The translations under genes and the position numbers were made by a program. The notes beneath the pieces are model-generated. The model ran no database searches and was not told where the DNA came from. It saw only the letters and a program-made list of their open reading frames with translations. DNA of 64,000 bases, taken from positions 17,013 to 81,012 of the forward strand of contig CACGAC010000004.1 in the NCBI GenBank assembly GCA_902571015.1, read 5' to 3'. Positions 2,629 through 63,058 of this stretch are shown in pieces. The stretch's first letter is position 1. Each line of letters begins with the position of its first letter. The DNA is from an uncultured Pelagibacteraceae bacterium (lineage in GTDB: Bacteria > Pseudomonadota > Alphaproteobacteria > Pelagibacterales > Pelagibacteraceae).

Positions 2629-2669
2629 TTGATGGTATTTATACTTATTTCTAATATAAATTAAATTAA

Positions 2670-3606: not shown

Positions 3607-3749
3607 TGGATGAACAACTTAGAATTATTTTGATTATAATTATTTCAGTTTCAATTTTTGGTTTAGTTGTTTTTGTATTTGTAAAAAATTATATCAAAAA
3701 CAAAATTGATTTTTTAGTTAAAGAAAGTAAAAAAAATAAGTTAAAGTAG
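3606..3749 (+). CDS. 47-aa single-TM small protein
   Basis: MDEQLRIILIIIISVSIFGLVVFVFVKNYIKNKIDFLVKESKKNKLK*; start overlaps upstream stop by one nt (TAATG). Confidence 0.5.
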   Translation: MDEQLRIILIIIISVSIFGLVVFVFVKNYIKNKIDFLVKESKKNKLK

Positions 3750-4304: not shown

Positions 4305-4332
4305 AGAAAGATTTAATATAATATATTTTAAA

Positions 4333-5377: not shown

Positions 5378-5757
5378 GTGATTTTAAATTTACTTTGTTT
5401 TAACGCCCCAAAACCACCATCAATATGCGAGACCTTTTTAAATCCCATATCTTTTAAAGATTTTGCCGCAAGAGCTGACCTCATTCCACCAGCACAAAAT
5501 AAAACCATTTCTTTGTTTAAATCTAGTTTACCTTGTTTAAAATAAGTGCTCTCTGGATCAAGCCAAAACTCTAACATACCTCTTGGAATATGATTTGAAT
5601 TTTCGATTCTTCCCTCTCTTTCTAATTCTCTTACATCTCTAATATCAATTAGGTTACACTCGTTTTTATTAAATTTATCAAAAGCTTCTTCGGTTGATAT
5701 AGTTTTAATCTCTTTTAAGGCTTCTGTAACAAGAGTTTGGGATGATTTAATTGTCAT
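5374..5757 (-). CDS. Rhodanese-like domain protein
   Basis: LIDIRDVRELEREGRIENSNHIPRGML...LFCAGGMRSALAAKSL active-site Cys loop. Confidence 0.9.
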   Translation of the reverse strand: MTIKSSQTLVTEALKEIKTISTEEAFDKFNKNECNLIDIRDVRELEREGRIENSNHIPRGMLEFWLDPESTYFKQGKLDLNKEMVLFCAGGMRSALAAKSLKDMGFKKVSHIDGGFGALKQSKFKIT

Positions 5758-5792
5758 TATATTGTAGATATTTATATCATAAATAAAAACAT

Positions 5793-6761
5793 ATGAGAAA
5801 GTTTTTCATTAAAATTTGTAAATTTTTTGGCTTTGAAATTATAGATCAAAATGAATTTACTTCTCCTACATTAAATAAAGAATTGAATGAGGATCTTTCA
5901 ATTTTAAATAAAAAATCAATAGTATTACCATTAGGAGAAGTTAAAATTACCAGAAAAGTAAAATCAATCTTAATAATTGTTAGAGTTAATACAGAAATCG
6001 AAGTTTGGGATCAAAATAAAAGAAGATTATTCGAACAACCAAAAATCGAATATTCAATTCGATCAATAAAATCATTGATAAACTCTATCAATTATTGTCA
6101 AAGCAAATATCCAGATTTAAGGATAAAAACAATAATTTTAGATGACTCTTCAAAAATTGAAAATTTAGATAAAATCAAAGAAATAATAAAAAATGTAAAT
6201 GGAGAAATTATTTCTCTGGACACAAAAAAATTTGAAGCCAAGATTAAAAAACAAAAAACACAACAAACTTTTTCTAATTTAGCAAGTTTATTTCAGTGTT
6301 TTGAGATTGGAAAAGAGATTGGGGAAGATCTAATTTTTTTTGTTGAAGATGATTATCTTCATTTTGAAACCATGTTGGAAGAGATGATTGCTACATATGA
6401 AAGAGTTTCGTCTCAAGTAGACAAAGATATTTTCATGTGTCCTGCAGATTATCCATATCTATATATGAATAACGAAAAAACGAACATCCTAATAGGAAAC
6501 AAAAGGCACTGGAGAACAATTACTAAAACTTTATGTACCTTTTTAACAAGCAAAAAATTATTAAATCTATATTGGGAAAATTTTACAAAAAATTGTGAAG
6601 ATCGTCATGATCCTTTTGAGAAATATATAAATGAGATCTATAAAAAAGAGTTTTGTATATCTCCTTTAAAAAGTTTATCCGTCCATTTGACAAATGTTAA
6701 TTCAAGTTATGGTTTGTCACCTTTTATTAATTATAAAAATTTGTGGGATCAAAATAAATAA
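5793..6761 (+). CDS. Putative GT-A-like glycosyltransferase / uncharacterised
   Basis: 322 aa; LIFFVEDDYLH acidic motif like DxD region, IKTIILDDSS. Confidence 0.45.
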   Translation: MRKFFIKICKFFGFEIIDQNEFTSPTLNKELNEDLSILNKKSIVLPLGEVKITRKVKSILIIVRVNTEIEVWDQNKRRLFEQPKIEYSIRSIKSLINSINYCQSKYPDLRIKTIILDDSSKIENLDKIKEIIKNVNGEIISLDTKKFEAKIKKQKTQQTFSNLASLFQCFEIGKEIGEDLIFFVEDDYLHFETMLEEMIATYERVSSQVDKDIFMCPADYPYLYMNNEKTNILIGNKRHWRTITKTLCTFLTSKKLLNLYWENFTKNCEDRHDPFEKYINEIYKKEFCISPLKSLSVHLTNVNSSYGLSPFINYKNLWDQNK

Positions 6762-6784
6762 GCCCCTTGAGGGAGGGGCTTATT
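6757..6784. terminator. Strong hairpin terminator (likely bidirectional)
   Basis: AATAAGCCCCT-tgaggg-AGGGGCTTATT perfect 11-bp stem overlapping the stop of the + CDS. Confidence 0.8.
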
Positions 6785-6810
6785 ACTTAACTAACTAAGA
6801 GAAAGTTTGA

Positions 6811-6859
6811 GGATCCTTCTATGAGTATTCGCTGAGAATATACAGAGAGCGAAGGATCC
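6811..6859. other. Imperfect long stem-loop downstream of amt
   Basis: GGATCCTTC ... GAAGGATCC perfect arms with inner GAGTATTC/GAATATAC. Confidence 0.6.
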
Positions 6860-6874
6860 CCATGTTGTTAACAA

Positions 6875-8176
6875 CTAGTCACGAATTGCGTATGCAATTA
6901 CACCAGTTTCAGTGACATCAGTACCTTTGGTTTCAGCTTCTTTACTTAATCTTAAACCAATAGTTGCTTTGATGAGGCTAAATGCAATATATGCAACCAC
7001 AAAAACAAATATGTTTACTGATAATACACCAATTAACTGAGTGCTAAAATTTGCACCAGAATTTGTTGCAGGTACAATTAATGTACCCCAAATTCCAGCA
7101 AATAGGTGAGCAGGAATAGCACCAACTACATCATCAATTTTTAAAGAGAATAATAGTTTAGTACCATACACTACGATTAGTCCACCCACTGCACCAATTA
7201 AAATTGCAGCAAATGGCGATGGTAATAATGGTTCTGCAGTTACAGCAACCAAACCACCAATACATCCATTTAACATTTGAACTACGTCAGTTTTACCAAA
7301 ATGCAATCTTGTTATAACTGCTGCACCCATAACACCACCTGCACCAGCAAGGAATGTGTTAATAAATATTTTTGATACAGCTATTGCATCCGTAGCCGTT
7401 CCCAATGCTAATTGTGAACCACCGTTAAATCCAAACCAACCTAGCCATAAAATAAATACTCCAATTGTAACTAATGGTATTGATGATGCTGCAAAAGGTT
7501 TGATCGGCGCTGGGGCTCCAGACTTAGTAAATCTTCCTAGTCTTGGACCAATTATCATTGCACCAGCCAAAGCAGCTGCACCACCAGTTGAGTGTACTAA
7601 AGTCGAACCAGCGAAATCAGAAAAACCTGCTTCTGCTAACCAGCCTCCACCCCACTGCCAACCCATTACGATTGGATATATAATACCTGATAAAATTGCA
7701 GCAAATGTAAAGAATGGCCATAACTTAATTCTTTCAGCCATTGTTCCTGATACGATTGAAACGGTAGTTGCACAGAATACCATCTGGAAATACCAATCTG
7801 AACCATCTGAATAACCTGTATCTATTTTACTACCATCTGCCCATGGAATAAATTTACCAATGTACCCACCTGGATCAATACCATAAGCTAAGTTATAACC
7901 TACAAGCCAGAACATTATACCTGCAATTGAGAATAAACCTATATTTTTTGCACAGATTACGGATACACTTTTTGATGTAACCATACCTGATTCTAACATT
8001 GCGAATCCTGCAGCCATAAACATTACTAGGAATCCACAAATTAAGAATAATAGAGTGTTAAATATAAACCCTACTTCGGCAGAAACAGTTGTATCTGCCA
8101 TACCAGCACTACTCATGTTTAATAAAAAAATTAAACTAATAAGTGGCGCACTTATTACTTTTATTAATTTAGTCAT
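6875..8176 (-). CDS. amt: Ammonium transporter
   Basis: AMLESGMVTSKSVSVICAKNIGLF, GGSTLVHSTGGAAALAGA-type motifs, 433 aa. Confidence 0.97.
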   Translation of the reverse strand: MTKLIKVISAPLISLIFLLNMSSAGMADTTVSAEVGFIFNTLLFLICGFLVMFMAAGFAMLESGMVTSKSVSVICAKNIGLFSIAGIMFWLVGYNLAYGIDPGGYIGKFIPWADGSKIDTGYSDGSDWYFQMVFCATTVSIVSGTMAERIKLWPFFTFAAILSGIIYPIVMGWQWGGGWLAEAGFSDFAGSTLVHSTGGAAALAGAMIIGPRLGRFTKSGAPAPIKPFAASSIPLVTIGVFILWLGWFGFNGGSQLALGTATDAIAVSKIFINTFLAGAGGVMGAAVITRLHFGKTDVVQMLNGCIGGLVAVTAEPLLPSPFAAILIGAVGGLIVVYGTKLLFSLKIDDVVGAIPAHLFAGIWGTLIVPATNSGANFSTQLIGVLSVNIFVFVVAYIAFSLIKATIGLRLSKEAETKGTDVTETGVIAYAIRD

Positions 8177-8271
8177 ACGACCTCCCTGTTAAAGAGAGTT
8201 CTTTTATTTTATTAAATGCTAATAACTAACGCTGATTACGAAAATTGGGTATGCAGTATTTGCATATAGAA

Positions 8272-8302
8272 ACAGCCTTAACGAGAGTTTCGTTAAGGCT
8301 GT
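8272..8302 (-). terminator. Hairpin terminator after HU
   Basis: CAGCCTTAACGA-gagttt-CGTTAAGGCTG perfect stem. Confidence 0.75.
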
Positions 8303-8311
8303 AAAAAGACG

Positions 8312-8587
8312 TTATTTATTGAATACTTCTTTTAAAGCTTTTGCTGGTAAAAACTTAACTTTTTGAGACGCAGCAATTTGAATCTGTTCTCCTGTTCTTG
8401 GGTTTCTTCCAACTCTAGCTTTTCTCTTAGCTACTTTATAAGTACCAAAACCAGCAATTTTTACTGAATCGTCAGCTTTTAAAGCATCTAAAATTGTGTT
8501 GGTAATTGTATCAAAAGTTCTCTCAGCATCTGCTTTGCTTAGATTTAGTGCCCCAGAAATTTTGACTACTAGTTGTTTTTTGTTCAT
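8312..8587 (-). CDS. hupB: DNA-binding protein HU
   Basis: GFGTYKVAKRKARVGRNPRTGEQIQIAASQKVKFLPAKALKE. Confidence 0.97.
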   Translation of the reverse strand: MNKKQLVVKISGALNLSKADAERTFDTITNTILDALKADDSVKIAGFGTYKVAKRKARVGRNPRTGEQIQIAASQKVKFLPAKALKEVFNK

Positions 8588-33965: not shown

Positions 33966-35585
33966 TTACATATTTCCATACTTTGGTCCACCACCTCCTT
34001 CAGGGGTAACCCAAATTATATTTTGAGAAGGTTCTTTAATATCGCAAGTTTTACAATGAATACAGTTTTGAGCGTTAATAACAAATTTGTTTATATCATT
34101 CTCTTTTTGAACCTCGTAAACTCCTGCTGGGCAATATCTTTGTGCTGGTTCATCATATTTCTCAAGAGTATATTTTATTGGTAAATCTTTATCTTTTAGT
34201 TTTAAGTGCACTGGCTGATTATCCTCGTGGTTAGTTCCGGTCAAATAAACTGAGCTTGTTTTATCAAAAGTAATAACATTGTCTGGTTTAGGATAATCAA
34301 TTTTTGGCATTTTATCTGCAGGTTTTAAGGTTTCATGGTCAGAATGCTTATGCCTTAATGTGAATGGAAGTTTTCCTCTAAATAAAATTTGATCAATTCC
34401 TGTAAAAATTATTCCTAAAATTAATCCCCAGCTAAAACTTGGTTTTACATTTCTTGCTTGATACAGTTCTTTATATAACCAGCTTTTTTTAAACATTTCC
34501 TCGAATAATGATAAATCTTTTTTAGACTGGATGTGTTCGTTAATAGCCTCTGCTGCTATAATTCCGCTTTTCATAGCAGTATGAGAACCTTTTATTTTTG
34601 GCATGTTTAATGTTCCCGCATCACATCCAATAAGTAATGCACCTGGCATAAACATTTTAGGTAAACTTTGAATACCACCTTCAATTAAAGCTCTAGCCCC
34701 GTATGAAATTCTTTTTCCGCCCTCTATTATCTTTTTTATTGACGGATGTGTTTTAAATCTTTGAAACTCATCAAAAGGAGAAAGATGAGGATTTTGATAG
34801 TCTAAACCTATGACATATCCTAAAAAAACTTGTTTATTTTCAGCATGATAAATAAAACTCCCACCATAAGTTTTATTATCTAAAGGCCATCCAGCTGTAT
34901 GCATTACTAATCCCTCTTCATGATTTTTTTCATTAATTTCCCAAATTTCTTTAAATCCGATACCGTATTGTTGAGGATCTTTATCTTTATTAAGATTAAA
35001 TTTTTTAATCAATTGTTTTCCTAAATGACCCCGACAACCCTCAGCAAAAACTGTAACCTTACCTATTAGCTCAATACCTGGTTCAAAACTATCTTTTTTG
35101 TTTCCTTGTTTATCTATTCCCATGTCCTGAGTGGCTACACCTTTAACAGAACCATCGTCATTGAATAAAATCTCACTTGCAGGAAATCCTGGAAATATCT
35201 CTACTCCAAGTGCTTCTGCTTGCTCAGCTAGCCATCTACATAAATTTGCAAGGCTTATAATATAATTTTTATGATTTTTTTGAACAGCAGGTAACAACCA
35301 AGTAGGCCAATTTAAAGATTTTGTTTTTCCTAAGAATAAAAATTTTTCCTTAGAAACTTTTGTTTTTATTGGTGGATTTAAATCCTTCCAATTTGGAATT
35401 AACTCGTCTAGTGCTCTAGTTTCAAAAACATTTCCACTTAAAATATGCGCACCGATCTCTGATGCTTTCTCCAAAACGCAAATATTTAAATTTGAATTTA
35501 ATTGTTTTAGTTTAATAGCAGTTGTTAATCCTGATGGTCCTCCACCAACAATTACAACATCATATTCCATTGACTCTCTGGACAT
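33966..35585 (-). CDS. etfD: Electron transfer flavoprotein-ubiquinone oxidoreductase
   Basis: VVIVGGGPSGLTTAIKL, C-terminal CIHCKTCDIKEPSQNIIWVTPEGGGGPKYGNM. Confidence 0.97.
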   Translation of the reverse strand: MSRESMEYDVVIVGGGPSGLTTAIKLKQLNSNLNICVLEKASEIGAHILSGNVFETRALDELIPNWKDLNPPIKTKVSKEKFLFLGKTKSLNWPTWLLPAVQKNHKNYIISLANLCRWLAEQAEALGVEIFPGFPASEILFNDDGSVKGVATQDMGIDKQGNKKDSFEPGIELIGKVTVFAEGCRGHLGKQLIKKFNLNKDKDPQQYGIGFKEIWEINEKNHEEGLVMHTAGWPLDNKTYGGSFIYHAENKQVFLGYVIGLDYQNPHLSPFDEFQRFKTHPSIKKIIEGGKRISYGARALIEGGIQSLPKMFMPGALLIGCDAGTLNMPKIKGSHTAMKSGIIAAEAINEHIQSKKDLSLFEEMFKKSWLYKELYQARNVKPSFSWGLILGIIFTGIDQILFRGKLPFTLRHKHSDHETLKPADKMPKIDYPKPDNVITFDKTSSVYLTGTNHEDNQPVHLKLKDKDLPIKYTLEKYDEPAQRYCPAGVYEVQKENDINKFVINAQNCIHCKTCDIKEPSQNIIWVTPEGGGGPKYGNM

Positions 35586-35606: not shown

Positions 35607-36560
35607 TTATTTTTGTATAGTGTTTAATTTGTTCAGTTCCTCAATAAATTGAGGTACCGCTTCAAAAAGATCAGCCTCTAGACCATAGTCTGCAACACTA
35701 AAAATTGGAGCCTCACCATCTTTATTGATTGCGACAATCACCTTGCTTTCTTTCATTCCAGCTAAATGTTGTATTGCACCAGAAATCCCAATGGCAATAT
35801 ATAAATCTGGGACTACAACTTTTCCAGTTTGACCCACTTGATGATCATTACTTATATATCCAGCATCAACAGCTGCTCTTGATGCTCCAATAGCAGCATT
35901 TAATTTATCAGCAACAGAAGTAATTAATTTAAAATTATCTCCACTCTGCATTCCTCTTCCTCCAGAAACAACTACCCTTGCAGTTCCAAGTTCTGGTCTA
36001 TCTGACTTAATTTCCTCTCTTTTTACAAATTTTGTATTATTAAATTCTTCACTTGGTTCAACTTTTTCAATCTGCGCAGATCCACCTGAACTCTCACATG
36101 GATCAAATGAGGTTGGTCTAATAGTAATGCATTTTTTTGGATCTTTGCTTTTTACAGTTGCAAACGCATTCCCAGCATAAATAGGTCTTAAAAACGTATC
36201 TGCAGAAATAACTTTAATAATATCACTGACTTGAGAAGTATCTAAAGAAGCTGCGATTCTTGGCATCAAATTTTTACCAAAAGTATTCGCTGAACAGACA
36301 ACATGAGAGTAACTTTCTGCCAATTTCACAATTACTGGAGCAAAATTTTCTGCTACAAAGTTTTCGTAATGAGCAGCCTCTACTTGAATCACTTTTTTGA
36401 CTAATGGTAACTCTGATAATTTTTTTGCTGCATCTCCACAATTACTACCAATAATTACAGCATGAAGATCTGTATCCATTTGAGAAGCTGCTGTTACAGC
36501 ATTAAGTGTAAATGGTTTTAGTTCTTTGTTATTATGTTCTGCAATTAATAAAACTGACAT
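35607..36560 (-). CDS. etfA: Electron transfer flavoprotein alpha subunit
   Basis: VSGGRGM, GASRAAVDAGYISNDHQVGQTGKVVVPDLYIAIGISGAIQHLAGM. Confidence 0.97.
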   Translation of the reverse strand: MSVLLIAEHNNKELKPFTLNAVTAASQMDTDLHAVIIGSNCGDAAKKLSELPLVKKVIQVEAAHYENFVAENFAPVIVKLAESYSHVVCSANTFGKNLMPRIAASLDTSQVSDIIKVISADTFLRPIYAGNAFATVKSKDPKKCITIRPTSFDPCESSGGSAQIEKVEPSEEFNNTKFVKREEIKSDRPELGTARVVVSGGRGMQSGDNFKLITSVADKLNAAIGASRAAVDAGYISNDHQVGQTGKVVVPDLYIAIGISGAIQHLAGMKESKVIVAINKDGEAPIFSVADYGLEADLFEAVPQFIEELNKLNTIQK

Positions 36561-37309
36561 TATATTACTTTAGCCTCATTTTTTAATTTTTGCACTAGCT
36601 CAGCCACACTTTTTACTTTTATTCCTGCTTTTCTTTTTGGTGGCTCTTCAACCTTAATTTGCTCGATTCTTGGTGATGTATCTACTCCTAAATCTGACGC
36701 ATTTATCTGCTCAATAGGTTTTTTTTTAGCTTTCATAATGTTTGGTAAAGATGCATATCTAGGTTCATTAAGTCTTAAATCACAAGTTACAATTGCAGGA
36801 ATATTGATCTCTATTGTCTCTAATCCTTCGTCAATCTCTCTCGTAACTTCAAGTTTTTTATCTTTAATCTCAATCTTGGAGGCAAATGTTGCTTGAGGCC
36901 AATTTAATAAAGCACTTAACATTTGACCTGTTTGATTACAATCATCATCAATTGCTTGTTTTCCCATAAAAACTAAATCTGGTTTTTCCTTTTCAACAAT
37001 TTTTTGTAATAATTTGGAAACGGCTAAAGGTTCTAAAATTCCATCAGCTTTAATAAGAATGCCTCTATCAGCTCCAACCGCTAATGCTTTACGAACAGTT
37101 TCTTGAGCTTTCTCTTCTCCAACACTTACTGCAACTACCTCGGTCGCTTTTCCTGACTCTTTAATTTTTACCGCCTCCTCAATCGCATTATCATCTGGTG
37201 GATTGGTAGACATCTTAACATTTTCAGTTACTACACCAGTGTTATCCTCTTTAACTCTGACTTGAACATTGTAATCAATTACTCTTTTTACTGCGACCAA
37301 AATTTTCAT
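36560..37309 (-). CDS. etfB: Electron transfer flavoprotein beta subunit
   Basis: [59 protein letters not shown]. Confidence 0.97.
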
Positions 37310-39741
37310 TAGGCTCTCAATAGTTTGTTTTCAGCATCGTATGGACTTTCTTCTACTATTGTAGCCTCATACATTTTTCCAAGAATATCAACTTTAAGTT
37401 TTTCTCCAATATTTGCTAAATCAGGTTTCACCATGGCTAAGGCAATAGATTTATCTAATCTAAATCCATATTCCCCTCCTGTTGCTCGCCCAACGACTTT
37501 GTCATCTTTATAAATTGGATTGTTACCTAAAACATCTGAGTCTGTTGTGTCATGAACCTCTAGTGTTACTAATTTATTATCAAAACCCTTTTCTCTCCAT
37601 TTGTTTAGTGCATCAAGTCCTATGAAATTACCCTTATTTGGATGAATAAATCTGTCTAGGCCAGACTCATAAGGTGAATACTCAATTGATAGTTCAGTTC
37701 CCACAAGTTTATAAGATTTTTCTACTCTTAAACTATTCATCGCTCTGATGCCAAAAGGTTTAAGACCGAGATCCTTACCTGCTTCCATTAATTTATCAAA
37801 AATATGGTTTTGATATTCAATTGGGTGATGTAATTCCCAACCAAGTTCACCAACAAAATTTACCCTCATAGCATTTACTGGAGCATATCCAACATTAACA
37901 TTTTTTGCAGTTAACCATTTAAAGTTTTCATTTGAAAAATCATCAGTAGAAACTTTTTGCATAAGTTCTCTTGCTTTTGGACCTGCCACAACAAGTACAC
38001 CTGTACTATTTGTTAAGTCCTCAAATATAACTGAACCATCAGTTGGCATCCATTTTTGAATCCAATCATGGTCTAATCTCAAATTTGCTCCAGCTGAAAC
38101 TAAATAATAACTATTTTCAGCTTCTTTCATAATTGTAAACTCAGAGTGAACACCACCTTTAGTATTAAGCGCATGACACAAATTAATTCTTCCGATTTTT
38201 TTTGGAAGTTTGTTAGCAACTAAGTAGTCTAAAAATTCTTCAGCCTTTGGACCTTTTATTCTACATTTTGCAAAGGCTGTCATATCTAAAAGTCCAACAT
38301 TCTTTTTAACGTTTTCACATTCTTTCTTAATTGCATCAAACCATTTTGATCTTCTAAATGACCAATGATCTTTTTGTTCCATGCCATCTGTTGCAAAAAA
38401 GTTTGGTCTTTCCCATCCAAATTTTTGTCCAAAGACAGCACCAAGATTTTTCATTCTTTCATAACAAGGAGATGTTCTTAAAGGTCTAGCAGCTGGTCTT
38501 TCTTCATCAGGATAATGAACAATAAAAACATGACTATAAGCCTCCTCATTTTTTGCTTTGAGATAAGATTTTGTTGCATAATTTCCGTAACGTCTTGGTT
38601 CAACACCAAGCATATCAATCGTCGGTTCACCATCAATAATCCATTCTGCTAATTGCCAGCCCGCTCCACCTGCTGCAGTTATTCCAAAACTATGTCCCTC
38701 ATTAATCCAAAAATTTTTAAGTCCCCATGCTGGACCAACTATAGGATTACCATCTGGTGTGTAACATATTGCACCATTATAAACTTTTTTCACTCCAACT
38801 TCTCCAAATGCTGGAACTCTATGTATTGCTCCTTCGATATGCGGAGCAAGTCTATCTAAATCCTCTTGAAACAATTCATATTCAGAGTCTTTTGAAGGAC
38901 CTTCGACATAACATGCTGGTGCACCATCTTCATATGGTCCTAATATTAATCCACCAGCCTCCTCCCTCATATACCATCTACTATCACTATCTCTTAATAC
39001 TCCCATCTCTGGTAGACCCTCTTTTTTTCTTTTTTGTATTTCTGGATGCGGTTCAGTTACAATATATTGATGTTCAACAGGTATGACTGGAATATCTAAT
39101 CCAACCATTTCGCCAGTTTGTCTTGCAAAATTTCCTGAACATGAAATGACATGTTCACATTCAATTGATCCTTTGTCTGTTTCAACAATCCATCCCTCTT
39201 TAGTTTGTCTCATTGATAACACTGTTGTGTTTCTATAAATCTCAGCTCCTCTGTTCCTAGCACCTGTGGCAAGTGCCTGAGTTAAGTCTGCAGGTTGGAT
39301 GTATCCATCTTCTGGGTGTTGAATCGCTCCAACTAAATCATCAGTATGACAAAGCGGCCAAATTTCTTTTACTTGTTGAGGTGTCAAAAATTTTACATCA
39401 ACACCAATTGTTTTAGCTACACCAGCATATTGATGGTACTCATCCATTCTATCTTTGGTACTAGCTAAACGGATATTTGAAACCACACTGAAACCAACAT
39501 TCTTGCCAGTCTCTTCTTCTAATTTTTTGTAAAGATTTACTGCATATTTGTGAAGTTGACCAACAGAATAACTCATATTAAAAAGAGGTAGCAAGCCTGC
39601 TGCGTGCCAAGTTGAACCTGAGGTTAATTCTTTTCTTTCAACTAAAACAACATCTGACCAACCTTTTTTTGCTAAATGATAAAGAGCGCTTACTCCAACA
39701 ACTCCTCCACCGACTACGACGACTTTTGCTTTAGATTTCAT
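37309..39741 (-). CDS. Dimethylglycine/sarcosine dehydrogenase (FAD domain + GcvT C-terminal domain)
   Basis: [43 protein letters not shown]; GcvT-type [15 protein letters not shown]-terminal; adjacent to ETF genes. Confidence 0.9.
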
Positions 39742-41658: not shown

Positions 41659-42033
41659 CTATTTAAGTTTACCGTCTTCTCTCATCTTTGCTCTTATCTT
41701 GGTGGCTGAAATTTTTTGTATTTCCTCAGGTAAAACAATTTCTTCTATTTTATAACCAACACCTCTTCCGTAACAAATGTTTGTAATATTGGGTACTAAC
41801 ATAATTTTAAAACGTCCCTCGAATTCTGGATTAAGTTTATCTTCAATATTTTTTTTTACTGTTTCAAAGTCAAATGGATTATCATCAACACCTTGTACAT
41901 CTCTAATTTGTATGCAAACTTGTTCAGTTTTTTTAATTATTTCTTTAAATAATGTATAGTGACCATCATGAAAGGGCTGCCATCTTCCTAACATCTGTGC
42001 AGTTGGTTTTTTATTGTCCCATTTATAAGACAT
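41659..42033 (-). CDS. Cytidylyl/adenylyltransferase-like nucleotidyltransferase
   Basis: MLGRWQPFHDGHYTLF (HxGH-like), ISATKIRAKMRED; Met at 42033 overlaps upstream stop (TAATG). Confidence 0.8.
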   Translation of the reverse strand: MSYKWDNKKPTAQMLGRWQPFHDGHYTLFKEIIKKTEQVCIQIRDVQGVDDNPFDFETVKKNIEDKLNPEFEGRFKIMLVPNITNICYGRGVGYKIEEIVLPEEIQKISATKIRAKMREDGKLK

Positions 42034-42440
42034 TATACTATTTCCTTTAATATTTTTGGTGCCCAATTTTTAGCATCTTGAGTGGTAACATGATAGTTAT
42101 ACTTCTCTGGTTTTACGAACATTTTATTAGTATCATCAAACCTACCTTCTTTAATAGTATCGACCCATATAATAAAATCTGCTGGAAACAGCGCTCTTGC
42201 AGCAGGGGTTGGACAAACAAAATCTGCAACAACATGATTACCTTGATCTCTAAACTCTTTTGCTTTTGCCCACATTCTTTTCGCCTGCCTAGTTCTTCCC
42301 TCTGCTGAAAAATCCCAATCATTTGCTTCTTTTCTCACTTCATCAGCATTGAGCCACTTTGCTTTTAATAATGGAACTAATTCAGAGGCTAAAGTCGTTT
42401 TACCTGAGCCTGGCAAACCCATAATTAATATAATCTTCAT
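42033..42440 (-). CDS. APS kinase-like (CysC-like) P-loop kinase
   Basis: MKIILIMGLPGSGKTTLASELVPLL, WLNADEVRKEANDWDFS, DFVCPTPAARALF. Confidence 0.8.
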   Translation of the reverse strand: MKIILIMGLPGSGKTTLASELVPLLKAKWLNADEVRKEANDWDFSAEGRTRQAKRMWAKAKEFRDQGNHVVADFVCPTPAARALFPADFIIWVDTIKEGRFDDTNKMFVKPEKYNYHVTTQDAKNWAPKILKEIV

Positions 42441-42545: not shown

Positions 42546-43274
42546 ATGAATTTTTCTCTAGAAATAAGCCCAACAACAGATCTCGACACTGTTCCACCTG
42601 TAAATGATATTTACATAACAATGTTACCTGGAGGGGATTATCGAGAAACAGCACAACAAGCAGTTGAGTTAGTTAAAAAAGGTTTCAATCCAGTACCTCA
42701 CTTTCCAGCAAGATCAATGCAAGATGAAAAGCAACTAAAAGATTATATTTCTAGGTGTAAAGACGGTGGAGTTAAACAAGTTTTAGTAATTGGTGGCGGA
42801 AGAGAACCGATGGGAAAATTTGATAGCTCGTTTCAACTTTTAGAGACTGGTTATTTTGAGAAGATGACAATAGGAATTGCTGGACACCCAGAGGGGAGTC
42901 CTGATATATCCGACTCAGATTTAGAAAAAGCTATGATAGATAAAAAGCCTTATGCTGATTATATAGTAACACAGTGGTTATTAGATCCCCAGCCTATTAT
43001 AGATTTTGTTTCTAAACAAAGCGTACCAGTGCATGTTGGAATTACTGGGCCACTAAAAATATCAAGCTTAATTAAATTTGCTAATATTGTTGGAGCAAAA
43101 AATTCCTTAAATTTTCTTAAATCTAATTTTACTAAGGCGTTAGATTTATTAAAACCTAAAGACCCTAATGATCTAATTGGGAAAGTTAAATCGCATACTG
43201 ATTTCTTCCACATTTATACATTCGGCGGCTTGAAGGAAACAAACAAGTGGTTGAAGGAGAATGGTTATGTCTAA
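42546..43274 (+). CDS. metF: Methylenetetrahydrofolate reductase-like protein
   Basis: MNFSLEISPTTDLDTVPPVNDIYITMLPGGDYRETAQQAVELVKKGFNPVPHFPARS; ATG at 42546 preferred over TTG extension. Confidence 0.8.
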   Translation: MNFSLEISPTTDLDTVPPVNDIYITMLPGGDYRETAQQAVELVKKGFNPVPHFPARSMQDEKQLKDYISRCKDGGVKQVLVIGGGREPMGKFDSSFQLLETGYFEKMTIGIAGHPEGSPDISDSDLEKAMIDKKPYADYIVTQWLLDPQPIIDFVSKQSVPVHVGITGPLKISSLIKFANIVGAKNSLNFLKSNFTKALDLLKPKDPNDLIGKVKSHTDFFHIYTFGGLKETNKWLKENGYV

Positions 43275-44625
43275 AGAATTTGACTATACTAAACTAAAGC
43301 ATGTTACTTCTGTTGATCAATCAGATCGAAAAGTACCATACAATTTAAGACAAAGTGGGCCTACAAAAGTTGAAATGTTAATTTCAACAAGGGTAAGAAA
43401 GTCACCATATTGGCATCTATCAATGCAGGCAGGTTGTTGGAGAGCAACTGTTTATAACAGAATTTATCATCCAAGGGGATATGTGAAACCTGAGGATGGT
43501 GGTGCAATGGTTGAGTATGATGCAATTGTAAATCATGTAACTATGTGGAATGTTGCTGTTGAAAGACAGATCCAAGTAAAGGGTCCTGATGCAGAAAAGT
43601 TTGTTGATTACGTGATAACTCGAGATGCAACAAAAATCTCTCCGATGCGAGCAAGATATGTAATTTTATGTAACGCTTACGGAGGAGTTTTAAATGATCC
43701 AATACTTTTAAGAATTGCAAAAGATGAATTTTGGTTTTCTTTGTCAGACTCGGACATTGGAATGTATTTACAAGGTGTTAATGCAGACGGTAAATTTAAT
43801 TGCACTATTGAAGAAATTGATGCATGTCCTGTTCAAATTCAAGGGCCAAAATCAAAAGCACTTATGAAGGATTTATTAGGTGATCAAGTTGATTTAGAAA
43901 ATATGCCTTTCTATGGTTTAGCTGAAGTTAAGGTTGCCGGAAGAAGTTGTGTTATCTCTCAATCAGGTTTTTCAGGTGAAGCTGGATATGAAATATATTT
44001 AAGGAATGCAACTTTATATGCCGATGAGATGTGGAATGCTGTTCTTGAAGCTGGAAAAAAACATCAACTAATGGTAATTGCTCCCGCTCATCACAGAAGG
44101 ATTCAAGCTGGGATTCTTTCTTGGGGTCAAGACATGGATCAACAACATAACCCTTTTCAGTGTAATTTAGGTTATCAAGTTTCTTTATCAGGTAAAGGTG
44201 AATGGAAAAAAACTTCTGATTACGTAGGAAAAAAAGCTCTTGAAAAAATGGGTGCTGAAATCAAAGCTGGAAAAAAACCATATAAGTTACAGTTAGTTGG
44301 TCTTGAGTTAGGAGGAAAACCAATTGATGATTATGCACCAGATTTTTGGTTGATATCTAATGCAGATGGTGGTGATCCAGTTGGTTTTGTAACATCACCG
44401 TGGTGGCATCCTGAAAAGAAAACTAATATTGCTATGGGCTATGTTCCATTTGATGGAACTTTAAATGCAAATGGCTTTCCTAAAGGTAAAGTTGGAACTA
44501 AATTTAAAGTTCATTTACCAGAGAAATATTCAAATAAACCAGGAACACCTGTTGATGCTGTCATAGTTGATATTCCATTTAAGGAATCATATAACGCTAA
44601 CACTAGAGAAGTGGTATCAGGTTAA
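43261..44625 (+). CDS. GcvT/DmdA-family THF-dependent methyltransferase (demethylase) of unknown substrate
   Basis: STRVRKSPYWHLSMQAGCWRATVYN, WNVAVERQIQVKGPDAEKFVDYVITRD, LNDPILLRIAKDEFWFSLSDSD, VQIQGPKSK. Confidence 0.85.
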   Translation: MVMSKEFDYTKLKHVTSVDQSDRKVPYNLRQSGPTKVEMLISTRVRKSPYWHLSMQAGCWRATVYNRIYHPRGYVKPEDGGAMVEYDAIVNHVTMWNVAVERQIQVKGPDAEKFVDYVITRDATKISPMRARYVILCNAYGGVLNDPILLRIAKDEFWFSLSDSDIGMYLQGVNADGKFNCTIEEIDACPVQIQGPKSKALMKDLLGDQVDLENMPFYGLAEVKVAGRSCVISQSGFSGEAGYEIYLRNATLYADEMWNAVLEAGKKHQLMVIAPAHHRRIQAGILSWGQDMDQQHNPFQCNLGYQVSLSGKGEWKKTSDYVGKKALEKMGAEIKAGKKPYKLQLVGLELGGKPIDDYAPDFWLISNADGGDPVGFVTSPWWHPEKKTNIAMGYVPFDGTLNANGFPKGKVGTKFKVHLPEKYSNKPGTPVDAVIVDIPFKESYNANTREVVSG

Positions 44626-53771: not shown

Positions 53772-54359
53772 CTATTTATTTTCGTAACCAAACTCTAATG
53801 CTGCATCAGTAATAGAATGGTATAACGACTCTCCAAAACTTCTTAACGTGAATAACCTTACTTTAAATGGTTTGTCATTTAGTAAGTCTACTGTTAACGC
53901 AATATTATTATAAAGAGAATTTATTGAATTATTTTTCTTTAATTCATCAAAATTAAATGGTGATCCTTTCTTTAAAACTTCTATTACATAATTGCCCTCT
54001 ATATCAATTACAGCTCTTGAGTGGGATAAATCAGTAATTGCAAAATCTATTTCTTTACATGTTGAAGAAATATCATTGATTAAATCTTTTTTGGAAGAGA
54101 CCAATAACCAATTTTTCGGACCATTCCATAAAATTCTTGTGTCATCATTAAAACTCATATTTAAAGGAGTATCTTTCAGTTTTAAACCGTCAATATCTAT
54201 ACTTTCAATCGGAATATTAGAATTTTTGAATTGTACAATTTGCACAATTAACAAATTTTTTTTCTCTGAGATTTTTAAAAGGTCATCCCCTTTTTTGTCC
54301 TCAAAGTCTCCAAATAGTCCTCGATGGTGAACATTAGCTAGTGCAGAAATTAAACTCAT
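53772..54359 (-). CDS. soxG: Sarcosine oxidase gamma subunit
   Basis: Position after soxA; ILWNGPKNWLLV, DLSHSRAVIDIEG. Confidence 0.85.
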   Translation of the reverse strand: MSLISALANVHHRGLFGDFEDKKGDDLLKISEKKNLLIVQIVQFKNSNIPIESIDIDGLKLKDTPLNMSFNDDTRILWNGPKNWLLVSSKKDLINDISSTCKEIDFAITDLSHSRAVIDIEGNYVIEVLKKGSPFNFDELKKNNSINSLYNNIALTVDLLNDKPFKVRLFTLRSFGESLYHSITDAALEFGYENK

Positions 54360-57352
54360 GATCTAACTCGCTCACCTTTTGGGTCAACATAATGTGAAGA
54401 CACTATCTCGACTGGGATTACTTTATTTTTTAGAGGAGACATAACAAATAACTTTTCACCTATCATATTCTTACCATCCTTTAAAATTGCTAAAGAAAAT
54501 GGATTATCATGTTCAACACTCCAGCATGAAGCTGAAATATAACCTAATTTTGGGTTTGGAAGTGGTGCGTTTGAATCTTTAACTAAATGAGATCCCTCTG
54601 GGATGCTTGTTTTTTTATCTAATGGGACAACACCAACAATTTTTTGTCTATCTTCAGCTGCAAAAGCTTTTCTTGATAAAGATCTTTTTCCAATAAAATC
54701 TTTCTTTTTGCTCAATAGTCCCTCAAGTGAATTGTCATAAGGAATAGTTCTACCATCAAGCTCTGAACCTGCAACATGCCCCATCTCAATTCTTAAGGTT
54801 GATAGTGCCTCTGTTCCATATGGTTGAATTCCAAACTCTTCTCCAGCTTCTATTATTTTTTCCCACATAAAATATCCATTGTCTGACTCAACATTTACTT
54901 CGTATGCAAGTTCACCAGAAAATGAAATTCTATAAATTTTGGCTTTTACTCCAAATAAATCAGCTTCCATGTAACCCATAAAAGGAAGACCCTCATTCGA
55001 AACATCAGACTTTGGAAAAAGTTTTTTTAATACTTCTCTTGATTTTGGTCCAGCAATCGCTGCTCCCGCCCACTGTTCTGTCGTTGAAACTACATTTACA
55101 TTTAATTCTGGCCAAACAAGTTGTAGATAATATTCTAGATGCGATAGAACATTAGCAGCTTGAGCAGTTGTTGTGGTCATATGATAATGATTTTCTGATA
55201 TTCTTGTTGTTGTTCCATCATCCATAACAATTCCATCTTCTCTCAACATCACACCATATCTTGCTTTGCCAACTGGTAATTTTAACCATGCATTTGTGTA
55301 AACTCTATTTAGAAGTTCTGCTGCATCTGGTCCTTTAATATCAATTTTACCTAAAGTGGTTACATCACAAACACCAACATTAGTTCTAACATTTCTAGCC
55401 TCTCTCTTTGACGCCTCAAATAAATTCTCCTCACCACGTTTGTAATACCTTGGTCTTAACCATACACCCGCATCAACAAAGACTGCATTATTTTTTTTAT
55501 GCCATGAATGCATTGGAGATTTTCTTGTTGGTTTTGAATGTTTTCCTACTTCCCTTCCAACAATTGCTCCAATAGAAACTGGTGAGTAAGGTGGTCTAAA
55601 GGTTGTGTGCCCAACTGCTGGTACAACTTTATTTTCAATTTTCGATACTAGTTGTAAACCATTAAGATTACTTGTCTTACCTTGGTCTGTAGCCATACCA
55701 AGTGTAGTGTATCTTTTCACATGTTCAATAGACCTATACCCTTCTTTAAGAGCTATCTCTATATCAGAAACTGCAACATCATTTTGGAAATCTAAAAATC
55801 TTTTGTAGTTTTTTCCCTTTGGTAAGGGTACGCACCAAAATTTATCATGTACTGTAGATTTCTTTTCAACAACATTAGGAAAAGAAATCTTGTTCTCATT
55901 ATTTGTTATTTTTTTTGATAATAGGTTTCCTTTTTCAAATGAGTCTTTTAATGTCTCCTCTAAAGTGTAAATTCCGTTTGCAGCCCCTAAGGTTTTTTCA
56001 TTTTGTTTAGATATGCCGGGAACAAATGCATCAATATCTTCATTGAATTTTGTTTTATTTCCAGATTGTGATGCCAAATGAATTGTGGGTGTCCAAAACC
56101 CAGAAACACAAATACAATCACACGCAATATTTTCAATTGATCCGAGTTCTTCTTTATTATCTGAAATTTTAGCTACGTCAGCTGATTTTACTTTTTTATA
56201 TCCTTGAGCAGCTACAACTACATATGAATTTTTAATATTGATATTCATATTTTTTGCTTCTTCGATAATCTCTGATTGAGGCTCTTTTCTTGTATCTAAA
56301 ATTATTGGATCGATACCATTCTTTTTAAATTCAATTGCTGTTTCATAACCACTGTCATTATTTGTAAAAACAAGCGGTTTTTTTCCAACTAATACTCCGT
56401 ACACTTTCATGTATTCCTTAGCAGCTGAAGACAACATTACGCCAGGAGTGTCATTATTACCAAATACAATAGGTCTCTCTATGGATCCAGATGAGATTAA
56501 TACTTCTTTTGCTCTAATATACCAAAGTCTCTGCTTTGGATGAAATTTTTTTGTTTTCGGTAAATGGTCACTTATTCTTTCAGACATCACTAGCATGTTA
56601 TGATCATAATAACCAAAAACTTGAGATCTGTTTTTTACAGTAACATTAGGCATTTCTTTAAGCTCAGAAATGATACTATCTGCCCACTCTTTTCCTGATT
56701 GATTACCAATATTTACTTCACTAGTTAATAAAGTTCCTCCAAATCGGGATTTGTCCTCAGCCAAAATAACTTTTGCACCATTTTTTGCAGCTGAATAAGC
56801 GCTTGCTAATCCCGAAGGACCTGATCCTGTTATTAGCACATCACAATATTCATATTTATGCTCATATCTCTCTTTGTCATGTTTTATAGATGCTGTACCC
56901 AAACCAGCAGCTCTTCTTATAAATGGCTCATAAATTTTATACCAAAAACTTTTTGGCCACATAAAAGTCTTGTAATAAAAACCAGCTGGAAGAAATATCT
57001 TTAAAAAATTATTTATAGCTCCCACATCAAAATTCACACTCGGCCAACAATTTACACTTTTCGCTTCTAAACCCTCAAAAAGTTCCTGTTCAGTAGCTTT
57101 TATATTTGGTTCTGTTTCACCATTTCTGTATAATTGAACTATCGCATACGGCTCATCAACTCCGGCACCAAAGAAACCTCTGGGTCTATGATATTTAAAG
57201 CTTCTTCCTATAAGATGAACTCCATTAGCAATTAATGCAGAAGCAAGGGTATCTCCCTCATAACCATAATAATTTTTACCGTTGAATTTAAAAGAAATTT
57301 TTTTATCTCTATTTATGAATCCGCCACTTTCTAATCTAAAACTTTGTGTCAT
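54356..57352 (-). CDS. soxA: Sarcosine oxidase alpha subunit
   Basis: FKFNGKNYYGYEGDTLASALIANGVHLIGRSFKYHRPRG; 998 aa with C-terminal GcvT domain. Confidence 0.96.
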   Translation of the reverse strand: MTQSFRLESGGFINRDKKISFKFNGKNYYGYEGDTLASALIANGVHLIGRSFKYHRPRGFFGAGVDEPYAIVQLYRNGETEPNIKATEQELFEGLEAKSVNCWPSVNFDVGAINNFLKIFLPAGFYYKTFMWPKSFWYKIYEPFIRRAAGLGTASIKHDKERYEHKYEYCDVLITGSGPSGLASAYSAAKNGAKVILAEDKSRFGGTLLTSEVNIGNQSGKEWADSIISELKEMPNVTVKNRSQVFGYYDHNMLVMSERISDHLPKTKKFHPKQRLWYIRAKEVLISSGSIERPIVFGNNDTPGVMLSSAAKEYMKVYGVLVGKKPLVFTNNDSGYETAIEFKKNGIDPIILDTRKEPQSEIIEEAKNMNINIKNSYVVVAAQGYKKVKSADVAKISDNKEELGSIENIACDCICVSGFWTPTIHLASQSGNKTKFNEDIDAFVPGISKQNEKTLGAANGIYTLEETLKDSFEKGNLLSKKITNNENKISFPNVVEKKSTVHDKFWCVPLPKGKNYKRFLDFQNDVAVSDIEIALKEGYRSIEHVKRYTTLGMATDQGKTSNLNGLQLVSKIENKVVPAVGHTTFRPPYSPVSIGAIVGREVGKHSKPTRKSPMHSWHKKNNAVFVDAGVWLRPRYYKRGEENLFEASKREARNVRTNVGVCDVTTLGKIDIKGPDAAELLNRVYTNAWLKLPVGKARYGVMLREDGIVMDDGTTTRISENHYHMTTTTAQAANVLSHLEYYLQLVWPELNVNVVSTTEQWAGAAIAGPKSREVLKKLFPKSDVSNEGLPFMGYMEADLFGVKAKIYRISFSGELAYEVNVESDNGYFMWEKIIEAGEEFGIQPYGTEALSTLRIEMGHVAGSELDGRTIPYDNSLEGLLSKKKDFIGKRSLSRKAFAAEDRQKIVGVVPLDKKTSIPEGSHLVKDSNAPLPNPKLGYISASCWSVEHDNPFSLAILKDGKNMIGEKLFVMSPLKNKVIPVEIVSSHYVDPKGERVRS

Positions 57353-57621: not shown

Positions 57622-58878
57622 TTACGAAATCCAGGTTTTGGTACCAAGTCCCTTTTCGTCAAGTAAGTGACCAGTATTAAATCTATTTAAACTATAGCCA
57701 GCATTTAATTCATGAACTCTATCTTGCGCGATAGTATGTGCAAATGTCCAACCAGATGCAGGTGTTGCTTTAAATCCACCATAACACCAACCACAATTTA
57801 AATACAAACCTTCAATATGGGTTTTGTCTATTATTGGCGAGCCATCCATAGACATATCCATTATCCCACCCCAAGTTCTAAGCATTTTTAATTTACTTAG
57901 GAAAGGCATCATTGCAATCCCTTCAGTTAGAACATGTTGAAGAGTTGGAAGATTACCTCTTTGTGCATAACTATTGTAGCCATCAAGATCACCACCCATA
58001 ACCATTTCACCTTTGTCAGACTGGCTTATATAAAAATGTCCAGCACCAAAAGTAACTACTTTATCTAAAACTGGTTTTACTGGCTCAGATACACATGCTT
58101 GTAGTAGATGAGTCTCAATTGGCAATGTCATATTTAATTTTTCAGCTAAAATATTTGTACTACCCGCAACACATAATCCAATTTTTTTTGCTTTAATGTC
58201 TCCACGAGAAGTTCTCACTCCATTAATTTTCCCTGCAGACACATCAAATCCAATTACTTCACAATTTTGAATTATGTCTACACCCATATCGTCTGCTTGA
58301 CGTGCATAACCCCAAGCTACAGCATCATGTCTAGCTGTTCCCGCACTAGGCTGCATTAATCCACCAAAGATTGGAAATCGTACATTCTCAGAAAAATCAG
58401 CCATAGGAATAATTTCTCTCACTTCTTCCCTATTTAAGAGAACTGCATCGATACCGTTTAATCTCATTGAATTTCCTCTTCGAGCATAAGTATTCATTTG
58501 TGCGTCCGAGTGAGCAAGATTTATTATTCCTCTTGGAGAAAACATAACATTGTAATTCAAATCTTGACTCATTCTTCTCCAAAGATCCATTCCAAATTCG
58601 CTGAATAATGCATTGTCATCATGCATATAATTTGATCTAATTATTGTAGTGTTTCGACCAACATTACCTCCACCAATCCAACCTTTTTCGATTATAGCAA
58701 CATTGGTGATATTGTGTTCTTTAGCTAGATAATATGCTGTTGCTAAACCATGTCCACCGCCACCAATAATAACAACATCATACTCTTTCTTAGGAGTTGG
58801 ATCTTTCCAAGCTAAGTCCCAATTTTCGTGATTTGAAAGGGCATTTTTAACAAGACTAAAAACTGAATATTTTTGCAT
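57622..58878 (-). CDS. soxB: Sarcosine oxidase beta subunit
   Basis: YDVVIIGGGGHGLATAYYLAKEHNITNVAIIEKGWIGGGNVGRNTTIIRSNY. Confidence 0.96.
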   Translation of the reverse strand: MQKYSVFSLVKNALSNHENWDLAWKDPTPKKEYDVVIIGGGGHGLATAYYLAKEHNITNVAIIEKGWIGGGNVGRNTTIIRSNYMHDDNALFSEFGMDLWRRMSQDLNYNVMFSPRGIINLAHSDAQMNTYARRGNSMRLNGIDAVLLNREEVREIIPMADFSENVRFPIFGGLMQPSAGTARHDAVAWGYARQADDMGVDIIQNCEVIGFDVSAGKINGVRTSRGDIKAKKIGLCVAGSTNILAEKLNMTLPIETHLLQACVSEPVKPVLDKVVTFGAGHFYISQSDKGEMVMGGDLDGYNSYAQRGNLPTLQHVLTEGIAMMPFLSKLKMLRTWGGIMDMSMDGSPIIDKTHIEGLYLNCGWCYGGFKATPASGWTFAHTIAQDRVHELNAGYSLNRFNTGHLLDEKGLGTKTWIS

Positions 58879-59004: not shown

Positions 59005-60690
59005 ATGAGCGACATAAAATCAGATATTCAAATTGCTCGTGAAGCAAAAATGCTTCCAATAAAGGAAATCTTAGCGAAAGTAAATGTTCCAGACGAAAGT
59101 TCAGCTTTTAGCCCGATGGGCAGACATATTGCAAAAATAAACTTGGAATACTTAGATACATTAAAAGATAAGCCAGACGGTAAATTAATTTTAGTTACGG
59201 CAATAACTCCAACTCCTGCTGGAGAAGGTAAAACAACCACTTCTGTTGGGTTAAACGATGGACTAAATAAAATTGGAAAAAAATCTATTGTATGCTTAAG
59301 GGAACCAAGTCTAGGTCCATCCTTTGGTATGAAAGGTGGTGCTGCAGGAGGAGGGTATGCTCAAGTAGTTCCAATGGAACAAATTAATCTTCACTTTACT
59401 GGAGATTTTCACGCAATAACATCAGCACATAATCTTTTATCTGCTTTAATTGATAATCATATCTACTGGGGAAATAAATTAAACATAGATGTCAGAAGAA
59501 TTGTTTGGAAAAGGGTTATGGATATGAACGACAGAGCTTTAAGATCAATTAATATTAATCTTGGCGGTGTTGCTAATGGTTTTCCAAGAGAAGATGGTTT
59601 TGATATCACAGTTGCTTCTGAGATAATGGCTATCTTTTGTCTTGCTAATAATCTTGAAGATTTAGAAAAAAGGATTGGAAATATTACAGTAGCATACACT
59701 CGAGAAAAAAAACCAATTTACGCTAAAGATTTAAATGCTCATGGACCAATGACTGTTTTACTTAAAGAGGCAATCAGACCTAATATTACACAAACACTGG
59801 AAAATAATCCTGCGATAATTCATGGTGGACCATTTGCAAACATTGCGCATGGATGTAATTCTGTAATTGCAACTAAAGCTGGATTAAAACTTGCTGATTA
59901 TGTTGTAACTGAAGCAGGTTTTGGTGCAGATTTAGGAGCTGAAAAATTTTTAGATATCAAGTGTAGGAAATCAAATTTAAAACCAAGTTGCGTTGTTATT
60001 GTTGCAACTGTTAGAGCCTTGAAGATGCATGGTGGTGTTGCAAAAGACGATTTAAAGAATGAGAATGTAGATGCATTAAAAAAAGGATTAATAAATCTTG
60101 AAAGACATATTGAAAATGTAAAAAAGTTTGGTTTACCTGTAGCAGTAGCCGTAAATCATTTTATAAAAGACACTGATAAAGAGGTAAATTCTTTAGTAGA
60201 ATTTTGTAAAAAGCTAGGTGTTAAAGCTAGTATTTGTAAGCATTGGGCTCATGGTGGTGAAGGAACAAAGGATTTAGCTAAACATGTAACAGATTTATGT
60301 GAAAAGAACGAAGATAAATTTAAATTTTTATATGAAAGTAAAACTCCTCTTTTCAAAAAAATAGAAACCATAGCAAGAGAGATTTATAGAGCTGATGAAG
60401 TTATTGCAGATACTAAAATCAGAGATCAACTAAAAAACTTTGAAGAAGCTGGTTATAGTGAATTACCTATATGTGTTGCAAAAACCCAATATAGTTTCTC
60501 AACAGATCCAAATCTAAAAGGTGCTCCGACTGGTCATTCGCTACCAATTAGAGAGATTAGGTTATCTTCTGGCGCAGAGTTCATTGTTGTTGTTTGTGGA
60601 GCAATTATGACAATGCCTGGACTTCCTAGAGTGCCAGCAGCTGACTCTATTAAGCTAAATAAAAAAGGTGATATAGAAGGTCTATTTTAA
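59005..60690 (+). CDS. fhs: Formate-tetrahydrofolate ligase
   Basis: [41 protein letters not shown]. Confidence 0.98.
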
Positions 60691-61726: not shown

Positions 61727-63058
61727 ATGAAAAAAGTAGCAATTATTGGTGCAGGACCTTGTGGACTATCAATGTTAAGGTCTTTTGAACTAGCGGAAAA
61801 AAATGGTGAAAAAATCCCTGAAGTTGTTTGTTTTGAAAAGCAAGAAGATTGGGGTGGCTTATGGAATTATAGTTGGCGAACAGGATCTGATCAATACGGG
61901 GACCCTGTACCTAACAGTATGTATAGATATCTTTGGTCAAATGGACCAAAAGAATGTTTAGAATTTGCTGATTATTCTTTTGATGAACATTTTGGAAAGC
62001 CAATACCATCCTTTCCACCTAGAGAAGTTTTATATAACTATATTGTTGGAAGAGTAAGTAAAGGAAATTTAAAAAAAAAGATTAAGTTTAATACGAGAGT
62101 TATAAATACTATTTTTAAAAACGACAAATTTGAACTTAGTTATCAAGATAAAGTTAACAATAAAGTATTAAAAGATAATTTTGATTTTGTTGTTGTTTCA
62201 ACTGGTCATTTTTCTGTTCCATTTATTCCAGAATACAAAGGAATGGATACTTTTCCTGGAAGAATAATGCATTCTCATGATTTTAGAGATGCAGAAGAGT
62301 TTAGAAATAAAAATGTAATAGTACTAGGTAGTAGTTATTCAGCAGAAGATATCGCACTTCAGTGTAATAAATATGGAGCTAAAAGTGTTACCATTGGTTA
62401 TAGACATAACCCAATGGGATTCAAATGGCCTAATGGAATGAAAGAGGTTCATTATCTTGACAAATTAGTAGGAAAAAAAGCAATCTTTAAAGATGGCACT
62501 GAACAAGAGGCTGATGTTATAATTCTTTGCACTGGTTATCTTCATCATTTTCCATTTCTAGAGGAAAATTTACAATTAAAAACTAGAAACAGACTTTATC
62601 CACCAAAATTATATAAAGGGGTGGTTTGGCAAGATAATCACAAACTTTTATATCTTGGCATGCAAGATCAATTCCATACATTTAATATGTTTGATTGCCA
62701 AGCTTGGTACGCAAGAGATGTGATTATGAATAAAATCAAAATACCATGTAATGATGATGTTGAAAAAGATATTAATAAATGGGTTGCAATGGAAGAAAAA
62801 CTAGAAAACCCAGATCAAATGATTGATTTTCAAACTGAGTATACAAAAGAGCTTCATGAAATGTCTGATTATCCAAAAATTGATTTTGAGTTAATAAGAA
62901 AACACTTTAAAGAATGGGAACATCATAAAGTAGAAGATATTTCAACATATAGAAATAAATCTTTTTCATCTCCTGTAACTGGCTCAATTGCTCCTATTCA
63001 TCATACGCCATGGGCAACTGCTATGGACGACTCTTCAAAAACTTTTTTAGACAAATAA
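61727..63058 (+). CDS. tmm: Trimethylamine monooxygenase (bacterial FMO)
   Basis: VAIIGAGPCGLSMLRSF, EKQEDWGGLWNYSWRTG, FSVPFIPEYKGMDTFPGRIMHSHDFRDAEEF, VIVLGSSYSAEDIA. Confidence 0.9.
   Translation: MKKVAIIGAGPCGLSMLRSFELAEKNGEKIPEVVCFEKQEDWGGLWNYSWRTGSDQYGDPVPNSMYRYLWSNGPKECLEFADYSFDEHFGKPIPSFPPREVLYNYIVGRVSKGNLKKKIKFNTRVINTIFKNDKFELSYQDKVNNKVLKDNFDFVVVSTGHFSVPFIPEYKGMDTFPGRIMHSHDFRDAEEFRNKNVIVLGSSYSAEDIALQCNKYGAKSVTIGYRHNPMGFKWPNGMKEVHYLDKLVGKKAIFKDGTEQEADVIILCTGYLHHFPFLEENLQLKTRNRLYPPKLYKGVVWQDNHKLLYLGMQDQFHTFNMFDCQAWYARDVIMNKIKIPCNDDVEKDINKWVAMEEKLENPDQMIDFQTEYTKELHEMSDYPKIDFELIRKHFKEWEHHKVEDISTYRNKSFSSPVTGSIAPIHHTPWATAMDDSSKTFLDK

Follow-up and report, generated by a model that had tools for sequence, protein, structure and literature searches.

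Known Systems Closest to the Locus

A pair of adjoining SAR11 genes, SAR11_1264 (metF) and SAR11_1265, was reported by Sun et al. (2011). The product of SAR11_1265 was described as an aminomethyltransferase (AMT) without assigned function and as close kin of dmdA, and the guess was that it acts in the second demethylation of the DMSP pathway, with MMPA as substrate (PMC3160333). DmdA moves an onium methyl group to tetrahydrofolate (THF), as AMT would in the reaction proposed below. LigM and DesA are THF-dependent demethylases of the same GcvT family, comparable to AMT in length and accompanied by a MetF that oxidises methyl-THF. A GcvT domain is also common to GcvT itself, dimethylglycine dehydrogenase (DMGDH), SoxA and Tdm, but these enzymes yield methylene-THF or use other amines.

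In the sea, glycine betaine ranks with the most abundant osmolytes and SAR11 bacteria are the most abundant heterotrophs. Oxidation of betaine to CO2 by SAR11 has been reported (PMC3160333, as cited in PMC12478193). MtgBCD, GbcAB and BHMT catalyse the step from betaine to dimethylglycine, the same first step as is proposed here for AMT; however, they are unrelated to AMT and use cobalamin, O2 or homocysteine as acceptor. Cobalamin-dependent MtgBCD was found in other marine bacteria and not in Pelagibacteraceae, and BHMT was proposed, without experimental validation, as the SAR11 betaine demethylase (Mausz et al., 2025; PMC12478193). A search of the open-access literature found no report of a folate-linked betaine demethylase.

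The Gene Pair and its Surroundings

The window analysed here is a stretch of 64,000 nucleotides from an uncultured Pelagibacteraceae bacterium of the SAR11 group. It carries two open, overlapping genes for a MetF-like protein and a GcvT-family protein, at the place where the earlier note had put them (Table 1). The pair is equated with SAR11_1264/SAR11_1265 by gene order, annotation and kinship. Since that pair was reported in 2011 (PMC3160333), the genes as such are not new; the function proposed for them is. Either ATG 43261 or ATG 43267 may start AMT, which makes the overlap 14 or 8 nt; AAGGAG stands 8 nt before ATG 43267, and this is the more likely start. The overlap is kept across the SAR11 loci fetched (67 as in the window, 13 with a shorter match). 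All five DmdA-like signatures that had been read in the 454-aa protein are present in AMT: RVRKSP (residues 44-49), VYN (64-66), WNVAVERQ (96-103), LNDPILL (144-150) and FWFSLSDSD (157-165). The homology of both proteins is not due to chance, because Pfam GCV_T matches AMT at 139.8 bits (E 1.2e-40) and Pfam MTHFR the MetF-like protein at 28.2 bits, and among solved structures AMT matches DmdA (3tfh) at E 1.1e-42 and the MetF-like protein matches 7xg9 at E 7.6e-34.

Table 1. Features of the window connected with betaine and one-carbon metabolism
Product	Coordinates	Strand	Remarks
ETF-ubiquinone oxidoreductase (ETF-QO)	33966..35585	-	Pfam Fer4_ETF_QO, ETFQO_UQ-bd
Electron transfer flavoprotein alpha subunit (EtfA)	35607..36560	-	
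Electron transfer flavoprotein beta subunit (EtfB)	36560..37309	-	
Dimethylglycine dehydrogenase (DMGDH)	37309..39741	-	810 aa, FAD and GcvT domains; best PDB match DMGDH, E 5.6e-197, vs dimethylglycine oxidase, 1.2e-112
MetF-like protein (SAR11_1264 type)	42546..43274	+	242 aa; ATG 42546, TAA 43274; proposed oxidation of methyl-THF to methylene-THF
GcvT-family aminomethyltransferase (AMT)	43267..44625	+	452 aa (454 if ATG 43261); TAA 44625; proposed glycine betaine:THF methyltransferase
Sarcosine oxidase gamma subunit-like (SoxG)	53772..54359	-	TIGR01375 53 bits, below cut-off 144
Sarcosine oxidase alpha subunit-like (SoxA; alternatively N-methylglutamate dehydrogenase)	54356..57352	-	TIGR01372 1312 bits, cut-off 1164
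Sarcosine oxidase beta subunit-like (SoxB; alternatively N-methylglutamate dehydrogenase)	57622..58878	-	TIGR01373 671.8 bits, cut-off 529
Formate-THF ligase (Fhs)	59005..60690	+	NF010030 919.8 bits, cut-off 652; end of THF-linked C1 oxidation

In the window, DMGDH is followed by EtfB, EtfA and ETF-QO. The soxBAG cluster, together with Fhs, is located 9-16 kb downstream of the pair.

Two other observations were made in the window. A trimethylamine monooxygenase is encoded near Fhs and the sox genes (61727-63058, + strand; 731 bits, cut-off 675), which adds a methylamine gene to those of the window. Overlapping genes for a small nucleotidyltransferase-like protein and a P-loop (APS-kinase-like) protein occupy 41659-42440 on the - strand; their position close to the pair is conserved in 48-52 of 61 SAR11 loci.

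A Separate Clade of the GcvT Family

Among solved structures DmdA is closest to AMT, followed by GcvT, and LigM is remote (E 9e-9). None of the NCBIfam models is reached: AMT scores 233.3 bits with the DmdA model NF009133 (cut-off 410), 131-151 bits with GcvT models (cut-offs 236-300), 46.7 bits with DesA (cut-off 800) and 41.2 bits with LigM (cut-off 580). In a tree of 75 rows, AMT was grouped with proteins of SAR11, other alphaproteobacteria and haloarchaea within a DmdA-like superclade; GcvT, DMGDH, SoxA and Tdm fell apart from this group, and LigM/DesA formed the outgroup. A more careful tree separated the AMT clade (support 98/93) from the DmdA clade (100/99). Members of the AMT clade come from marine SAR11, from a scatter of other alphaproteobacteria and from plasmids of haloarchaea. 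Judged from sequence, AMT is neither DmdA, GcvT nor LigM and belongs to a clade of its own. An identity as aromatic O-demethylase was rejected, LigM/DesA being only remote kin, and no aromatic genes lie near AMT.

AMT and DmdA share the GcvT fold family, the RVRxxP and YN signatures of the N-terminal part and the folate-site Y, N-D, E and R. They are about 30-31% identical and differ in gene context. Many residues are invariant in the AMT clade only, including the N-terminal block VDQSDR..P.NLRQ.G (residues 18-33) and YHPR (69-72), and the C-terminal region of AMT is longer. The folate-site residues common to DmdA and GcvT are kept as Y133, N145, D146, E244 and R280; the roles of Y133, D146, E244 and R280 are presumed to be those usual in the family. 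With both a GCV_T domain and these residues, AMT is probably a THF-binding member of the family. A model built on a shallow alignment of SAR11 sequences alone reached a pLDDT of only 41.5. The earlier note would have given up its proposal had AMT fallen inside the true DmdA or GcvT clade or lacked the THF-binding residues; it lies outside both clades and keeps the residues.

The MetF-like Partner

The MetF-like protein (P0002) matches MTHFR 7xg9/7xlf, which we take to be the enzyme of SYK-6, at E 7.6e-34, as against E 1e-3 for classical MTHFR. This closest solved relative is only distantly related, and P0002 is about 46 aa shorter. The MetF proteins of locus L135 and of Haloarcula give the same pattern. 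According to a 2026 review, an MTHFR subfamily exemplified by that of Sphingobium SYK-6, which co-evolved with a LigM-type demethylase, favours oxidation of methyl-THF (PMC13001107). The analogy with LigM/DesA and their MetF, drawn when the pair was first noticed, is not supported for AMT itself, which is too remote from LigM/DesA, although its partner would be akin to the kind of MTHFR that accompanies LigM if 7xg9 is indeed the SYK-6 enzyme.

P0002 is the sole MTHFR homologue found in the window genome. MetF of this type is present in 19 of 23 genomes with AMT and in 1 of 16 without it; it follows AMT, not DmdA. SAR11 genomes lacking AMT have either a canonical MetF (G198, G475, G489, G510) or no MTHFR detected. 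In four marine SAR11 genomes (G508, G521, G545, G554) DmdA and DMGDH are present, and neither AMT nor any MTHFR homologue was detected.

Distribution and Gene Linkage in Bacteria

Of 117 genomes of the order, 94 carry AMT; in several other genera of the family, most of the members sampled lack it. Among 385 genomes sampled of the class, 16 non-SAR11 genomes carry it (52-81% identity), and a search of a viral collection matched one SAR11-like fragment. When twenty longer loci were taken and their genes clustered, the genes recurring with AMT were those for a DMGDH-type FAD enzyme, MetF, SoxA/B/D and Fhs. In three genomes (L135, L136, L138) soxB-D-A-G-DMGDH-MetF-AMT stand consecutively on one strand; in L143-L146 AMT and DMGDH are head to head, and L147 adds Fhs. 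Counting one genome per family, a DMGDH-type gene lies within 5 kb of AMT in 6 of 14 bacterial families, where random placement would give 0.2 (P about 2e-8; rows of one lineage are not independent). MetF and DMGDH are both kept beside AMT in all 61 SAR11 loci with a full upstream flank. The other 8 families have AMT without DMGDH within 5 kb, and in the unlinked loci examined no competing pathway recurs among the neighbours.

A DMGDH-type gene is present in 23/23 genomes with AMT and in 6/15 SAR11 genomes without it (Fisher P 3e-5, uncorrected for kinship); four marine SAR11 that lack AMT retain DMGDH. AMT is linked to, or found together with, dimethylglycine- and sarcosine-oxidising enzymes of a betaine catabolic gene set. 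As for known betaine demethylases, no MtgB-family gene was found in 20 of the 23 genomes with AMT, and one genome (G401) has AMT plus three such genes. In the 19 genomes examined for Rieske proteins, none seems to attain the GbcA cut-off of 670, the best of 29 from genomes with AMT (E 4.6e-89) being judged below it. SAR11 also carry a BHMT-like gene, and BHMT has been proposed as their betaine demethylase (PMC12478193). In four genomes with AMT (G175, G386, G220, G547), neither MtgB nor a GbcA above cut-off nor a homocysteine methyltransferase of BHMT size was found. In G175 and G386, AMT adjoins DMGDH and Sox genes.

One SAR11 locus (L153, genome G012) carries a strain-specific island beside MetF-AMT, at 1542-8564, with a Rieske oxygenase, a cis-3-hydroxyproline dehydratase-like enzyme, an FrhB-like protein and a class II aldolase. 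It perhaps serves breakdown of a hydroxyproline-type betaine. The Rieske oxygenases here and in Haloarcula were considered as GbcA and rejected (125-132 bits, cut-off 670).

Haloarchaeal Orthologues

Haloarchaeal orthologues of AMT, known here from plasmid records, are 50-57% identical to it. Their neighbours are MetF, dimethylglycine-oxidase-like enzymes (E 2e-174), SHMT, IlvA, Fhs and FolD, joined at some of the loci by BCCT transporters or ETF. Within the stretch shown of each of nine loci examined, the dimethylglycine-oxidase-like FAD enzyme is present in 7 and MetF in 8. L099 has MetF, FolD, Fhs and BCCT without that FAD enzyme in the stretch shown, and the divergent L305 has neither it nor MetF there. 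Creatininase occurs in several of the clusters and a Rieske oxygenase in one. In the tree, the haloarchaeal rows are nested among the alphaproteobacterial ones, which suggests inter-domain transfer of AMT; at least the AMT of these modules looks acquired from bacteria.

Haloarchaeal megaplasmids (loci L099-L102, L302-L304, L308) hold a nearly complete module for betaine and folate C1 metabolism in varying sets, drawn from AMT, MetF, the dimethylglycine-oxidase-like enzyme, SHMT, IlvA, Fhs, FolD, FolP, PabAB and DHFR.

Proposed Function of AMT

On gene context and phylogeny, it is predicted, with a probability of roughly 60%, that AMT is a THF-dependent glycine betaine demethylase and that MetF oxidises the methyl-THF formed. 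We infer the reaction, its direction and the substrate alike. A methyl group of betaine, a quaternary ammonium compound, would be transferred directly to N5 of THF, without cobalamin or oxygen, to give dimethylglycine and 5-methyl-THF, in parallel to the action of DmdA on the sulfonium DMSP. The overlapping MetF-like protein would then convert 5-methyl-THF into 5,10-methylene-THF, and FolD and Fhs would carry this to formate with gain of ATP. Dimethylglycine would be taken to glycine by the neighbouring DMGDH with ETF/ETF-QO and then by sarcosine oxidase. Such a set would suffice to convert betaine into glycine and its methyl groups into formate, with AMT as the candidate for the first step. 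In chemical terms, betaine resembles DMSP, on which DmdA, the nearest characterised relative of AMT, acts: both are small onium carboxylates.

The earlier note had suggested for the pair a demethylase, by analogy with THF-dependent systems, that feeds in methyl-THF from a methylated compound. The position of AMT outside DmdA and GcvT and its kept folate-site residues favour this reading, and the substrate, which had been left open, can be narrowed to glycine betaine because the gene context in both bacteria and haloarchaea points to it. However, association cannot fix the substrate, because other N-methyl compounds feed the same enzymes, a BHMT-like gene is kept and linkage is absent in several families.

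Some enzymes of the DMGDH-type and Sox-type families act on other N-methyl compounds. AMT might demethylate a different onium or N-methyl osmolyte (proline betaine, carnitine, choline, homarine, trigonelline or a creatine-type compound), with DMGDH and Sox acting on the products. The creatininase genes of haloarchaea, the Rieske and hydroxyproline dehydratase-like genes adjoining the pair in G012, and the existence of related clades with unassigned substrates are consistent with this. It is nevertheless unlikely: the recurring partner is of the dimethylglycine-oxidising type, which one would look for in a pathway from betaine and not from the other compounds, and the island of G012 is not common to other loci.

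The linkage to DMGDH and Sox would also suit an accessory GcvT-like aminomethyltransferase that hands on to THF the methylene or methyl groups released when dimethylglycine or sarcosine is oxidised, as the GcvT domains of DMGDH and Sox enzymes do with C1 groups. But DMGDH and SoxA have such a domain of their own, and methylene-THF as product needs no MetF, yet MetF is the closest partner of AMT, so this role is quite improbable. That AMT is a second DMSP demethylase, isofunctional with DmdA, agrees with DmdA being its closest solved relative in the same superclade; it is highly improbable in view of the separate clade, the score far short of the DmdA cut-off, the many residues invariant in AMT only, the dimethylglycine/sarcosine rather than DMSP context, and the true DmdA already in the window genome (575 bits, cut-off 410).

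Hardly credible is demethylation of MMPA, since a thioether is a poor methyl donor and six genomes with AMT (G466, G412, G464, G175, G386, G347) have no DmdA above cut-off. Kinship to DmdA, the adjoining metF and an abundance similar to that of dmdA spoke for it (Sun et al., 2011; PMC3160333), but four SAR11 with DmdA lack AMT and its MetF, the haloarchaeal clusters have no dmd genes, and the known DMSP route takes MMPA via DmdB/C/D to methanethiol (PMC5395565).

Betaine demethylation by AMT would have wider meaning. BHMT would couple each betaine demethylation to methionine synthesis, and a THF-linked enzyme would free betaine oxidation in SAR11 from this. If true, the B12-independent route changes the marker gene to be counted for betaine turnover in ocean surveys. 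There is also a broader idea, which we hold at even odds: direct transfer from betaine to THF by a GcvT-family protein, needing neither cobalamin nor oxygen nor homocysteine, would be the chief way in which betaine enters metabolism in marine SAR11, and haloarchaea would have received this protein and its MetF as a module.

A third DmdA-like clade, of proteins of 380-390 aa, was seen in SAR11, f31 and Phaeobacter (L306 5971-10049; L311; L312; L316). In Phaeobacter its gene is followed by genes for OsmC, an enoyl-CoA hydratase and an acyl-CoA synthetase.
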